Positions 5,296 to 57,587 of a stretch of 64,000 nucleotides of DNA are shown piece by piece. The translations under genes and the position numbers were made by a program. The notes beneath the pieces are model-generated. The model worked only from the letters and a program-made list of their open reading frames with translations. It did no database searches and was not told where the DNA came from. Source of the stretch: Sulfuricurvum sp. (GTDB lineage Bacteria > Campylobacterota > Campylobacteria > Campylobacterales > Sulfurimonadaceae); contig NZ_JAQTUH010000001.1 of the NCBI RefSeq assembly GCF_028710345.1, positions 248,001 to 312,000 of the forward strand. Direction: 5' to 3'. Numbering within the stretch: the first letter of the stretch is position 1; every line of letters begins with the position of its first letter.

Positions 5296-5306
5296 TAACT
5301 CCATCT

Positions 5307-5333
5307 GTCATTCCCGCGTAGGCGGGAATCCAG
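5307..5333. repeat. GTCATTCC repeat, left hairpin after glnA
   Basis: GTCATTCCCGCG and GCGGGAATCCAG form one hairpin 11 bases after the glnA stop, where it may serve as terminator. It is separated by about 117 AT-rich bases from a matching right half at 5451-5491. Confidence 0.8.
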
Positions 5334-11081: not shown

Positions 11082-11108
11082 AAAGGATTATTTAGATAGG
11101 AGGTGATT

Positions 11109-11486
11109 ATGAAGCGTTCAGGGTTTACGATGATCGAGCTGATCTTCGTTATTGTTATTTTGGGTATTTTGGCAGCCGTTGCTATTCCACGTCTTGCGGC
11201 AACACGGGATGATGCGGCAGCAACGAAAGCATCGATGAATTTAGCGGCTTTTATCAGTGATATCGGTACATACTATACTTCAAGAGGTTCGTTGGATTTG
11301 ACATCAGCGGCTACTAATGTGGATCTTGCTCAAGATGGGTGTTTTACAGCAACCGCAGTGGGCTCAACGGCGGTCTCTATCGCCTCATCGGGGACGACAT
11401 TAGCGTGTACGACAGCCCATTCCATCGCGTCAAAAGCAGGGAATCTCGGGTTAAAAGATTTTGGCGGATCGAATGTGTCGTATTAA
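11109..11486 (+). CDS. Type IV prepilin / pseudopilin 1
   Basis: 125 residues. A short basic leader MKRSG is followed by FTMIELIFVIVILGILAAVAIP, the class III prepilin signal: cleavage by a PilD-type peptidase after Gly, mature N-terminal Phe and Glu at +5. The mature part has a two-cysteine C-terminal region (DGCFTA and TLACTT), likely a disulfide loop. ATG 11109 is preceded by AGGAGG 5 bases away; the in-frame GTG at 11103 is part of that SD. It is a close paralogue of the next gene (shared RGSLDLTSAATNVDL stretch). Confidence 0.92.
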   Translation: MKRSGFTMIELIFVIVILGILAAVAIPRLAATRDDAAATKASMNLAAFISDIGTYYTSRGSLDLTSAATNVDLAQDGCFTATAVGSTAVSIASSGTTLACTTAHSIASKAGNLGLKDFGGSNVSY

Positions 11487-11537
11487 TTAGGTTGGCTCAG
11501 CAATAATTAATCTAAAGTATTAAATAATACCATCAGA

Positions 11538-11551
11538 GTTACAAGTGTAAC
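11538..11551 (+). promoter_or_regulatory. Inverted repeat upstream of prepilin 2
   Basis: GTTACAAGTGTAAC, a perfect palindrome with a 2-base centre, ends 28 bases before the ATG. The preceding bases (AATAATACCAT) also match those before prepilin 1, so an upstream regulatory block was duplicated with the gene. Confidence 0.5.
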
Positions 11552-11579
11552 TACTTTAAACAATCCAAAGGAGTAAACC

Positions 11580-11966
11580 ATGAAACGTTCAGGTTTTACT
11601 ATGATCGAGTTAATCTTCGTTATCGTTATCTTAGGTATTTTGGCAGCAGTGGCTATCCCAAAACTAGCAGCAACTCGTGATGATGCAAAAGCAGCAAAAG
11701 CGGCACAAAACTTGGCAACCTATATCGCAGACGTTGGTTCATACTATACCTCAAAAGGTTCATTAGATTTGACATCAGCGGCTACCAATGTGGATCTTGG
11801 TCAAGATGCTTGTTTTGCAGCAAGTGCATCTGGAACAACAGGTATTACAGTTACATCAGGCGGTGCTAGTGCCTCTGAGCCAGGATGTCAAGCAGCTATC
11901 TCTATGGCGTCAAAAGCAGGGAATATTGGGGATAAAAACTTCGGTGGTTCAGGGGTAACTTTCTAA
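11580..11966 (+). CDS. Type IV prepilin / pseudopilin 2
   Basis: 128 residues; same prepilin leader and hydrophobic helix as prepilin 1 (KRSGFTMIELIFVIVILGIL). The region SKGSLDLTSAATNVDLGQDACF is nearly identical to its neighbour, and the ends (NIGDKNFGGSGV) also match. Differences cluster between the two cysteines (DACFAA and EPGCQAA), the part expected to be exposed on an assembled fibre. SD AAAGGAG precedes the ATG. Recent tandem duplication is the simplest explanation. Role: pilus or pseudopilus subunit; which machine assembles it cannot be told here. Confidence 0.92.
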   Translation: MKRSGFTMIELIFVIVILGILAAVAIPKLAATRDDAKAAKAAQNLATYIADVGSYYTSKGSLDLTSAATNVDLGQDACFAASASGTTGITVTSGGASASEPGCQAAISMASKAGNIGDKNFGGSGVTF

Positions 11967-11982
11967 GTTATTCTTAACTCGT

Positions 11983-12003
11983 TTCCACTCTCCGGAGTGG
12001 GAA
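11983..12003 (+). terminator. Hairpin after prepilin 2
   Basis: TTCCACTC / GAGTGGGAA with a 4-base loop. It lacks a good U-run, so it may stabilise or partly attenuate the message rather than end it. A second small palindrome GATTGCaaaGCAATC follows at about 12034-12048. Confidence 0.45.
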
Positions 12004-12074
12004 TAAACCGTTATTATTGGATTGATTTTTGAGATTGCAAAGCAATCGTAAAACTCAGTGCATTAGGACAATTT

Positions 12075-12515
12075 ATGATAAGAAGAACCGCTTTTACGAT
12101 GATCGAGTTAGTATTTGTTATCGTAGTGTTGGGTATTTTAGCGGCTATTGCTGTTCCACGACTTGCTGCTACACGTGATGATGCCATGATAGCAAAAGGT
12201 AAAAGTGATGTCTCTGCTATCCGAGCTGCTATTGTAAGTGAACGCCAATCGAGACTTTTAAAAGGTGAAAGTAATTATATTTCAAAGCTAGATGGTAAAA
12301 CAACTGGTGTGATTTTTGATGGTAACGATTCAACACACTCTTTATTACAGTACGGCATTACACCAGAGAGTGGAAAAGATGGAAAATGGAGCGGAAGCAA
12401 TAACTCTTACACTTATCAAATATTAGGAAGCGGTGTAGCTTTTACTTATACTCCTGCAACAGGTTTATTTGATTGTGATCATACTGATTCAAATTGTGCA
12501 CTGTTGGTACAATAA
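12075..12515 (+). CDS. Type IV prepilin / pseudopilin 3 (more diverged)
   Basis: 146 residues. MIRRTAFTMIELVFVIVVLGILAAIAVPRLAATRDDA is a class III prepilin N-terminus; processing would follow Ala rather than Gly, which PilD enzymes can accept but is less usual. The mature part is longer and different from its two neighbours, ending with a CDHTDSNC pair of cysteines. There is no good SD before the ATG (TTAGGACAATTT is the best). It may be a minor pilin. The priA start follows 14 bases after its stop. Confidence 0.9.
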   Translation: MIRRTAFTMIELVFVIVVLGILAAIAVPRLAATRDDAMIAKGKSDVSAIRAAIVSERQSRLLKGESNYISKLDGKTTGVIFDGNDSTHSLLQYGITPESGKDGKWSGSNNSYTYQILGSGVAFTYTPATGLFDCDHTDSNCALLVQ

Positions 12516-12529
12516 CCGTTTTTTCACAA

Positions 12530-14425
12530 TTGACTTATTATCAACTAGCCCTTTTGGGCTCTCCACTTGAATCTCTTACTTATCATTTCGATGTTTCTCT
12601 CACAATTGGTCTAAAGGTTTCTCTTACTCTGAGTAATCGAGAAACAGAAGGCGTTGTCCTCGCAGAAGTGGAAAAGCCTGACTTTAAAACCAATTCTATT
12701 TTAAATATTTTTTCGTTTGTTTATTCTGAATCTCAAATCAAGATAGCTCAGTTTATGGCGGAGTATTATGGATGTTCAGTTGGTGAGGCGTTAGGTCTAT
12801 TTGTGCCGTTTGTAGACCCGCCCTCGTTCCCAAGCTCCAGCTTGGGAATGCAGACCAACCGTACACATTCCCAAGCTGGAGCTTGGGAACGAGAGGGGCG
12901 GGCATCCATCAATATTACTCTCTCTCCCACCCAAACTCAAGCCCTCGATTTTATCCGCTCTCACTCTGTCTCACTACTTTTCGGGGATACGGGTGCGGGA
13001 AAAAGTGAAATCTATATGCGACGTATGGATGAAAGTTTATCAGAACAAAAACGGTGCTTGTTATTGCTCCCAGAAATTTCTCTTACACCGCAAATGGAAA
13101 AACGGTTTTCGAGCCATTTTGGTGATGCGGTAGTATTATGGCACTCCAAGATGACTCCGAAGCAAAAAAAGGTGACACTGGAAAAAATCCACAATGGATC
13201 TGCTCATATTATCGTGGGTCCCCGTTCGGCACTCTTTTTACCGATAAAAGATTTGGGGCTTATTGTGGTGGACGAAGAGCACGATGAGAGTTATAAATCC
13301 TCTTCCAGACCCCGCTACCATGCGCGGGATATGGCGATTTATATGGGGACGCTTTTAAAAATTCCGGTTGTGTTGGGGAGTGCAACACCCTCACTGTCAA
13401 GTTATGCCAAATACCCCTTTTTCAGATTACGCGGGGGGTACTTCTCTTCAAAAAGAGAATTTATTTTTGAACCCTCCATCGAGACGTTAAGCCCATTTTT
13501 GGATGCAAAAATCAAATCCAACTACGATGCGGGGCATCAAGGAATCGTTTTTATCCCGACACGAGCTAATTTTAAGACGATGGTATGTGAGAGTTGCGGA
13601 ACCATCATCGAGTGCCCGTTTTGCAGTGTGGGGATGAGTTTGCACCGTAATGCGCGCGCACTGAAATGTCACTACTGTAACTATACCGAAGTGCTTCCAA
13701 ACCTCTGTCCGAAATGTCAAAGCAAATCGCTCACTACAACCCGTTTAGGGACAGCCGAAGCGGTGGAACATTTTACACACCATTTTTCGGATATGAAAAT
13801 CCAGCAGTTTGATCGAGATGTGATTACGACCCAAAACAAACTTATCAAAGTGCTCGAAGCGTTTAATGCTAGAGAGATCGATTTGTTGGTGGGGACACAA
13901 ATGCTCTCAAAAGGGCATGATTATCACGACATAGCATTAGCAGTGGTGATGGGGATTGATAATCTGTTAGCACAAAGCGATTATCGTTCACGTGAACGTG
14001 CACTCTCACTCCTCATCCAAATCGCAGGGCGGAGTGGACGAAAAAATGATTCTATCGTTATCGTCCAAAGTTGTAATGAATCATTTTTTAGACCGTTTTT
14101 AGAGGATTATGAACTCTTTTTAAAAGAGGAGCTCAAGCTTCGTGAGGGGCGGTATCCTCCCCATAAAAAACTAGCCCGTCTACTTTTCGCCCATAAAAAC
14201 GGTGTAAAAGCAAAAACGGAGATGGAGAGGGCCGTGGGTGTATTGCAAACGGTTGGCTTAATCGATATTGTCGGATTCGGTGCTTCTCCTATCGAGAAAA
14301 TAGCGGATAAATATCGGTTTCAGATTTTGCTCCGCAGTGATAAAGTGACCTCTTTAATCCGCGCTATTAAACATATCAAATCGCCGTTATGTGAAATCGA
14401 TATGGATCCGATAGAGTTTACGTAA
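12530..14425 (+). CDS. priA: Primosomal protein N' (PriA helicase)
   Basis: 3'-5' helicase that restarts replication at stalled forks. Seen in order: N-terminal DNA-binding domain (YYQLALLGSPLESLTY), Walker A GDTGAGKSE, DEEH box, LGSATPS, zinc-binding cysteine clusters (CESC, CPFC, CHYC, CPKC), GTQMLSKGHDY and QIAGRSGRK. The start is uncertain: TTG 12530 matches where PriA proteins begin, with a TTG at 12494 as alternative, and no strong SD. Unusual: a palindromic repeat at 12817-12902 is translated as a linker of about 29 residues between the N-terminal domain and the helicase core. Confidence 0.93.
   Translation: MTYYQLALLGSPLESLTYHFDVSLTIGLKVSLTLSNRETEGVVLAEVEKPDFKTNSILNIFSFVYSESQIKIAQFMAEYYGCSVGEALGLFVPFVDPPSFPSSSLGMQTNRTHSQAGAWEREGRASINITLSPTQTQALDFIRSHSVSLLFGDTGAGKSEIYMRRMDESLSEQKRCLLLLPEISLTPQMEKRFSSHFGDAVVLWHSKMTPKQKKVTLEKIHNGSAHIIVGPRSALFLPIKDLGLIVVDEEHDESYKSSSRPRYHARDMAIYMGTLLKIPVVLGSATPSLSSYAKYPFFRLRGGYFSSKREFIFEPSIETLSPFLDAKIKSNYDAGHQGIVFIPTRANFKTMVCESCGTIIECPFCSVGMSLHRNARALKCHYCNYTEVLPNLCPKCQSKSLTTTRLGTAEAVEHFTHHFSDMKIQQFDRDVITTQNKLIKVLEAFNAREIDLLVGTQMLSKGHDYHDIALAVVMGIDNLLAQSDYRSRERALSLLIQIAGRSGRKNDSIVIVQSCNESFFRPFLEDYELFLKEELKLREGRYPPHKKLARLLFAHKNGVKAKTEMERAVGVLQTVGLIDIVGFGASPIEKIADKYRFQILLRSDKVTSLIRAIKHIKSPLCEIDMDPIEFT
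12817..12902. repeat. Palindromic repeat inserted in frame within priA
   Basis: Two arms of about 34 bases, each containing TTCCCAAGCTCCAGCTTGGGAA or its near match, face each other with CCCGCCC/GGGGCGGG at the ends. The reading frame stays open through it, encoding a Ser/Gly/Glu-rich stretch (FPSSSLGMQ ... QAGAWEREGRAS). Similar palindromes are scattered in many bacterial genomes; this one lies between domains of an essential-type protein. Confidence 0.85.
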
Positions 14426-43770: not shown

Positions 43771-43845
43771 CCCATTCGCCCTGAGCTTGTCGAAGGGTGA
43801 ATATTCACATAGATGTTCATGGTTCGACAAGCTCACCACGAACGG
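43771..43845. repeat. TTCGCCCTGAGC / GTTCGACAAGCTC palindromic element
   Basis: Left arm ATTCGCCCTGAGCTTGTCGAA and right arm GGTTCGACAAGCTCACCACGAAC share a GCTTGTCGAA/TTCGACAAGC pairing core with an AT-rich centre. This type is common in many bacterial genomes. A degenerate partial copy is visible at 44341-44365. Confidence 0.8.
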
Positions 43846-43856
43846 GTATTTTCTTC

Positions 43857-43885
43857 GTCATTCCCGCGAAGGCGGGAATCCAGCT
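43857..43885. repeat. GTCATTCC repeat, single-hairpin copy
   Basis: GTCATTCCCGCGaagGCGGGAATCCAG: only the first hairpin of the family, without the closing ATGAC half. It is 11 bases after the preceding palindromic element. Confidence 0.8.
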
Positions 43886-57502: not shown

Positions 57503-57556
57503 GTCATCCCCGCGAAGGCAGGAGTCTAGCTGGATTCCCGCCTTCGCGGGAATGAC
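57503..57556. repeat. GTCAT...ATGAC palindromic repeat, copy G
   Basis: GTCATCCCCGCGAAGGCAGGAG joined to CTGGATTCCCGCCTTCGCGGGAATGAC, two facing halves. It lies between the divergent GH-like and GT9 genes and ends 31 bases before the GT9 ATG. Confidence 0.85.
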
Positions 57557-57587
57557 GAAAAACGGTTATTTTGAAGGAAGAGAGAGA

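Follow-up and report, generated by a model that had tools for sequence, protein, structure and literature searches.

The palindrome inside the priA gene of this Sulfuricurvum genome is probably a REPIN/MITE derived from a RAYT, and the PriA linker in which it lies would be a recurrent landing site that tolerates insertions by virtue of being disordered and unconstrained in length, a reading to which we give a probability of roughly 0.78. The linker of a replication helicase thus seems to be in the course of being rewritten by mobile DNA. The features concerned are given in Table 1, with coordinates in the window, the 64-kb stretch of DNA that was analysed.

Table 1 Features of the priA region, in window coordinates
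Feature	Position	Strand	Basis
Putative REPIN/MITE-like element, 71 nt, two inverted REP units	12823..12893	.	Inverted repeat, fold, dispersed copies, RAYT ends
Left REP unit, 28 nt	12823..12850	+	Arm alignment
Spacer between REP units, 15 nt	12851..12865	.	Arm alignment
Right REP unit, 28 nt	12866..12893	-	Identical to the unit that follows the RAYT gene of this genome (L092)
priA, replication restart helicase, 631 codons from likely start TTG at 12530	12530..14425	+	NF004069 equivalog, Pfam domains, ORF, relatives
Hypervariable interdomain PriA linker holding the insert	12812..12905	+	Alignment of relatives, linker letters, low pLDDT at 98-124
Single cousin-type REP-like hairpin between upstream pilin-like genes and priA	11978..12004	.	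L008 985-1011

The palindrome within PriA that had been reported from the sequence is real and far beyond chance. The inverted repeat occupies 12818-12850 and 12866-12898, with 33-nt arms that are 94% complementary and a 15-nt spacer, and holds a perfect 71-nt core in which the arms are complementary at 28 of 28 positions, each arm being itself a 10-nt hairpin. No other inverted repeat of its class in the window is as strong, and the long runners-up reach 76-83% complementarity. Folded as RNA, the core comes to -56.8 kcal/mol versus a mean of -16.9 for shuffled sequences (z = -12.7), and none of 200 shuffles was as stable. All six frames of the 71-nt element are without stop codons, and its length is not a multiple of three. 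The head of the element is CTCG and not the GTAG of classical REPs, and the insert starts CTCGTTCCC, without the combination of CGTC head and AT-starting 8-9 bp stem that marks CGTC REPs. A TIR-type (TIRtron) description would suit the element better than that of a classical GTAG REP. GC-rich, roughly inverted linker flanks lie just outside it, at 12812-12822 and 12894-12903. The arms are perfect in the window copy, whereas the intergenic copies read carry mismatches, which suggests that the insertion is young. No empty site was found next to the window copy, and target duplication is therefore not readable.

The frame had been noted to stay open through the palindrome, and the ORF that spans it (12494-14425, 643 codons) is indeed uninterrupted; the start of priA was placed by comparison with relatives. 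PriA scored 855.5 bits against the NF004069 equivalog model (cut-off 767) and its Walker A and DEEH residues are invariant, so that model score and helicase residues both place it in the PriA family; it is the only full-length PriA match in its own genome. In three comparisons dN/dS was ~0.06-0.23 on both sides of the insert, and PriA is intact and under purifying selection. The element corresponds to residues 98-122, which lie between the Pfam 3'BD (residues 15-93) and DEAD helicase (residues 133-291) domains, as the original prediction of an insert in the linker between DNA-binding domain and helicase had it. The flexible Ser/Gly stretch that was also foreseen was rejected, as the insert would be translated as SFPSSSLGMQTNRTHSQAGAWER, which is not Ser/Gly in the strict sense. 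In an AlphaFold2 model, residues 98-124 form the only long stretch with pLDDT below 50, a weak sign of disorder as it falls in a gappy part of the alignment. Solved PriAs have a winged-helix domain between the 3'BD and the helicase; the window PriA is ~64 residues shorter than 4nl4 at the linker, and no Pfam winged-helix domain model matched it. Directly upstream of priA is a tandem set of three pilin-like genes (11103-12515) whose N termini are nearly identical.

A check for other copies in the genome found the window repeat dispersed, at 12 distinct places in its own genome (G000) with the priA copy included. The same genome encodes a RAYT of 177 aa (G000:C7:121329-121859) that matched NF047646 at 99.2 bits (cut-off 80), has the HLH motif and is flanked by REP copies on both sides. 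Of these copies, the one downstream of the gene is identical over 28 nt to the right arm of the insert. Pfam PF01797 by itself matched no transposase in the genome, and it took a relative's protein as query, or the NCBIfam model, to reveal this RAYT. In two sister genomes (G007 and G032) a 179-codon RAYT frame lies between inverted copies of the window repeat of 42 nt (98%) and 33 nt (100%). This sister-species protein scored 98.8 bits against the NCBIfam REP-associated tyrosine transposase, and the own RAYT is 75% identical to it. Cousin RAYTs in G003, G007, G009, G028, and G030 bear TTCCCACTC-type repeats. The element is thus an inverted doublet, is dispersed, and has its repeat type at the flanks of a RAYT, as REPINs do, and on these sequence features it appears to be the REPIN/MITE of a RAYT of its own genus.

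Among 41 genus genomes, RAYT matches were found in nine (two of them weak) and the window repeat in 25. The window repeat type occurs in the PriAs of G000, G003, G007, and G032, all of which are among the seven of 41 genomes with a strong RAYT match (p = 5e-4 for co-occurrence among the 37 genomes with a readable linker, with kinship ignored). The best-known palindromes within bacterial proteins are those of Rickettsia, said to have been described by Ogata in 2000 and 2002. The comparison with Rickettsia made in the original prediction holds insofar as a dispersed palindromic repeat is read in frame, but Rickettsia is an analogy only, the element probably belonging to the genus RAYT. A second RAYT element of G000, with ends CTCGTTCCCAACG..TGGGAATGCAT, breaks the assembly at C7:1, C8:124569, C14:38174, and C17:26434 (L163, L164, L168, and L165, respectively). 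The contig ends of C8 and C17 have 127 identical nt of this element in common, and its other side forms the ends of C7 and C14; this pattern suggests two or more nearly identical copies that moved recently.

Only one insert had been noticed at first, but unrelated repeats fill the same linker in many sister species. In an alignment, the stretch after LFVPF or LFVPY is hypervariable across the PriAs of the genus, and the linker was confirmed not to be a conserved PriA region in relatives. When 39 Sulfuricurvum linkers were compared with 156 non-PriA loci (427 kb), 23 matched dispersed loci at E <= 1e-3, whereas control segments matched in 2 of 38 cases upstream and 1 of 39 downstream, one of the upstream matches being a real second insert (L020). 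The L037 linker was over-long (480 nt) in this comparison; with the right bounds, its matches still lie inside the linker. The 23 linkers fall into family A (the window type and its cousin; three linkers), CGTC (seven), C (eight), D (three), and E (two), and one CGTC-family linker holds a nested A repeat. Because the locus pool was recruited with five of the linkers, five families were found by design, and since all of these families were taken from PriA linkers, both match and density counts are inflated. Family C translates as RPEPVEG..VRQAHHER. Family D, GLDPQSEILNRVQDD, likewise has CGTC at its start and is possibly a subfamily of CGTC, which leaves four or five unrelated families. These repeats are widely dispersed: C was found in 39 of 41 genomes, the CGTC query in 30, E in 34, and D at many places of G029 and G019. 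The window itself has four CGTC REPs (804-829, 5306-5331, 43856-43881, and 57532-57557) and a family C palindrome at 43771-43846 that adjoins a CGTC copy.

Nested elements are present in the linkers of L037 and L034. Two priA genes have a second insert, of a different family in each, in approximately the same N-terminal loop (L020 1465-1498 and L035 1429-1481, oriented along priA). Several species have a short linker without a repeat. Beyond the genus, where loci with a motif match were read and those without one, Arcobacter among them, were mostly left out, repeat-bearing linkers were found in Sulfurimonas PriAs (L256, L257, L262, L264, and L268), and the L262 repeat has seventeen further matches in its genome. 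The readable linkers of other bacterial families are short (14 of 20 order-level loci; Sulfurospirillum and Campylobacteraceae records), and that of L148 is longer, without a recognised repeat.

A single old insertion that diverged in place into the present linkers would account for their one common position, and it is one of two options given for Rickettsia RPE-4/6/7 (PMC3767692). However, the inserts in the linkers match dispersed copies elsewhere at 90-100% identity and show no relation to one another, and on a tree built from PriA minus the linker no repeat family forms a clade. At least 19 changes were counted overall among 36 labelled rows (L014, L023, and L030 were left out of the count, and L021 and L158 were assigned to families by eye): three changes for the three rows of family A, nine for nine of C, eight for eight of CGTC, three for three of D, and two for two of E. 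Supported sisters differ from each other, as with L108 (C) and L160 (A), L021 (C, by eye) and L232 (D), and L034 (E) and L248 (none). Of the inner branches of this tree 14 of 36 are open, and recombination of priA may likewise shuffle the family labels. Given the lack of clades and the identity to dispersed copies, descent of the inserts from one origin was rejected for most of the families; as an account of the present linkers this reading is largely refuted and extremely improbable. We give an equally slight chance to an artefact of assembly or binning, in which repeats would have been misjoined into priA in metagenome assemblies. Most of the records are metagenome bins and G013 breaks inside the linker, but the frames are open on both sides in many independent assemblies, including the two-contig genome G029, and normal priA sequence flanks the inserts.

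Density was counted with 107 non-PriA repeat copies as queries against 29 PriA loci. The linkers had 17 repeat places in 2.1 kb (7.9 per kb), the N-terminal part two in 8.2 kb, and the helicase part none in 43.8 kb. The flanks had three in 81.5 kb, all of them in the 15.4 kb without ORFs (0.19 per kb). Repeat density in the linker is thus ~40 times that of nearby non-coding DNA, an upper figure, as linkers were the source of the families. A linker density above that of non-coding DNA is not what tolerance alone would predict. This excess speaks for a targeted hotspot, in which the linker DNA or resident hairpins attract single-strand transposition and tolerance merely lets the elements stay; the nested elements, the two copies within one priA (L020 and L035), and the gathering of nearly all intragenic copies in a few genes point the same way. 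Against it stand the bias in the density, the absence of an established common target sequence, and the landing there of unrelated families without a known RAYT, and we consider targeting unlikely, though the most substantial of the alternatives.

We scored a copy as intragenic when an ORF with at least 50 codons on each side spanned the repeat. By this measure none of 33 sampled copies of family A was intragenic (window copy excluded), against 10/30 for C, 4/30 for CGTC, 2/12 for E, and 4/12 for D. Ten of these 20 intragenic copies are in PriA (four being query copies), six in B12/radical-SAM-like proteins, three in restriction-modification-like proteins, and one in a short, doubtful frame. 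Less biased samples gave 2/22 listed copies of C, 0/15 fetched copies of D, and 0/3 fetched copies of E (of 12 listed) in G029, and 0/20 copies in G000; for family D, the remaining three listed places in G029 are two PriA copies and L221. Both samples indicate that most copies are intergenic and that the intragenic ones gather in few genes. PriA as the sole host gene was rejected, as the radical-SAM-like and restriction-modification-like proteins are also hit repeatedly. In the B12/radical-SAM-like protein (named, like the next, from its sequence) C or CGTC repeats occur at the same place, after YELCKELLS (L111, L112, L120, L132, and L174), and this gene appears to be a second recurrent linker. 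L221 is the same gene as L111, and the G029 protein has a second insert near its C terminus. In the restriction-modification-like protein, family C repeats lie at different places in three genomes (L116, L119, and L131).

The inserts might also be adaptive linker cassettes, kept by selection because the repeat peptides or a message hairpin alter PriA activity or expression. Inserts are common (23/39) in a single-copy gene under purifying selection and the priA message hairpin is very stable, but the peptides of different families and frames are unrelated, several species do with short repeat-free linkers, and family turnover is rapid. We regard this as very unlikely.

Under the preferred reading of a RAYT-derived element in a tolerant linker, the palindrome would be a non-autonomous element built from a pair of end repeats of a RAYT transposon in inverted orientation. 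Presumably the hairpins are recognised by this RAYT, an HUH/tyrosine transposase, which carries the element in single-stranded form to a new site. One copy would have entered PriA in the short stretch that joins the 3' DNA-binding domain to the helicase; its survival there would be owed to a net change that kept the frame, to the lack of stop codons, and to a linker that is disordered and can vary in length. The linkers of sister species hold other, unrelated palindromes, in places nested or doubled, with repeats probably gained or swapped at a higher pace than species diverge, and tolerance is the presumed main cause of their concentration. Larger Y1 transposases (~220-350-codon frames, L078-L089) have other end repeats or none that were found and were rejected as mobilisers, so no mobilising transposase emerged for families C, CGTC, D, or E. 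A bolder version, in which the linker is a true hotspot for RAYT-type single-strand transposition and arrived hairpins attract more, to be exchanged as in-frame cassettes in Sulfuricurvum and Sulfurimonas, seems to us doubtful and quite improbable; if true, it would tie priA to the fork structures used by such transposases.

Like REPINs and their RAYTs (Bertels and Rainey 2011, PMC3116915; Nunvar 2010, PMC2817692), the window element is an inverted REP doublet forming a hairpin, and its genome encodes a tyrosine transposase that has these repeats on its flanks; unlike them, it has a CTCG head and not GTAG, and the window copy lies in frame in a housekeeping gene. TIRtrons and their TIRYTs (Di Nocera 2013, PMC3733652) resemble it in that their tyrosine transposases have long end repeats that are partly self-complementary. 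The same work describes replication and repair genes with REPs inside them in frame, as well as different REPs at about the same recB site in two Xanthomonas, and there too no transposase was found for CGTC REPs. PriA, Campylobacter, and Helicobacter are absent from the main text of PMC3733652, and no report of such repeats in PriA was found in the literature searched, in which subscription journals were thinly covered. Compared with the intragenic GTAG and CGTC REPs of that paper, the present case differs in that one PriA linker is hit by four or five families, across the genus and beyond. In Rickettsia, in-frame palindromes occur in protein-coding genes (PMC3767692, PMC10969869), and different RPE groups are found at the same site of orthologues, with a hotspot as one of two explanations (PMC3767692). 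The likeness in these two respects is taken as analogy only, and the present case differs in that one element is tied to a transposase of the same genome and that common origin of the inserts is largely excluded. For Rickettsia, the choice between a hotspot and one old, diverged insert was left open (PMC3767692); with unrelated families, one of them with a transposase in the same genome, and with sisters that differ, hotspot versus tolerance becomes directly testable in free-living bacteria.
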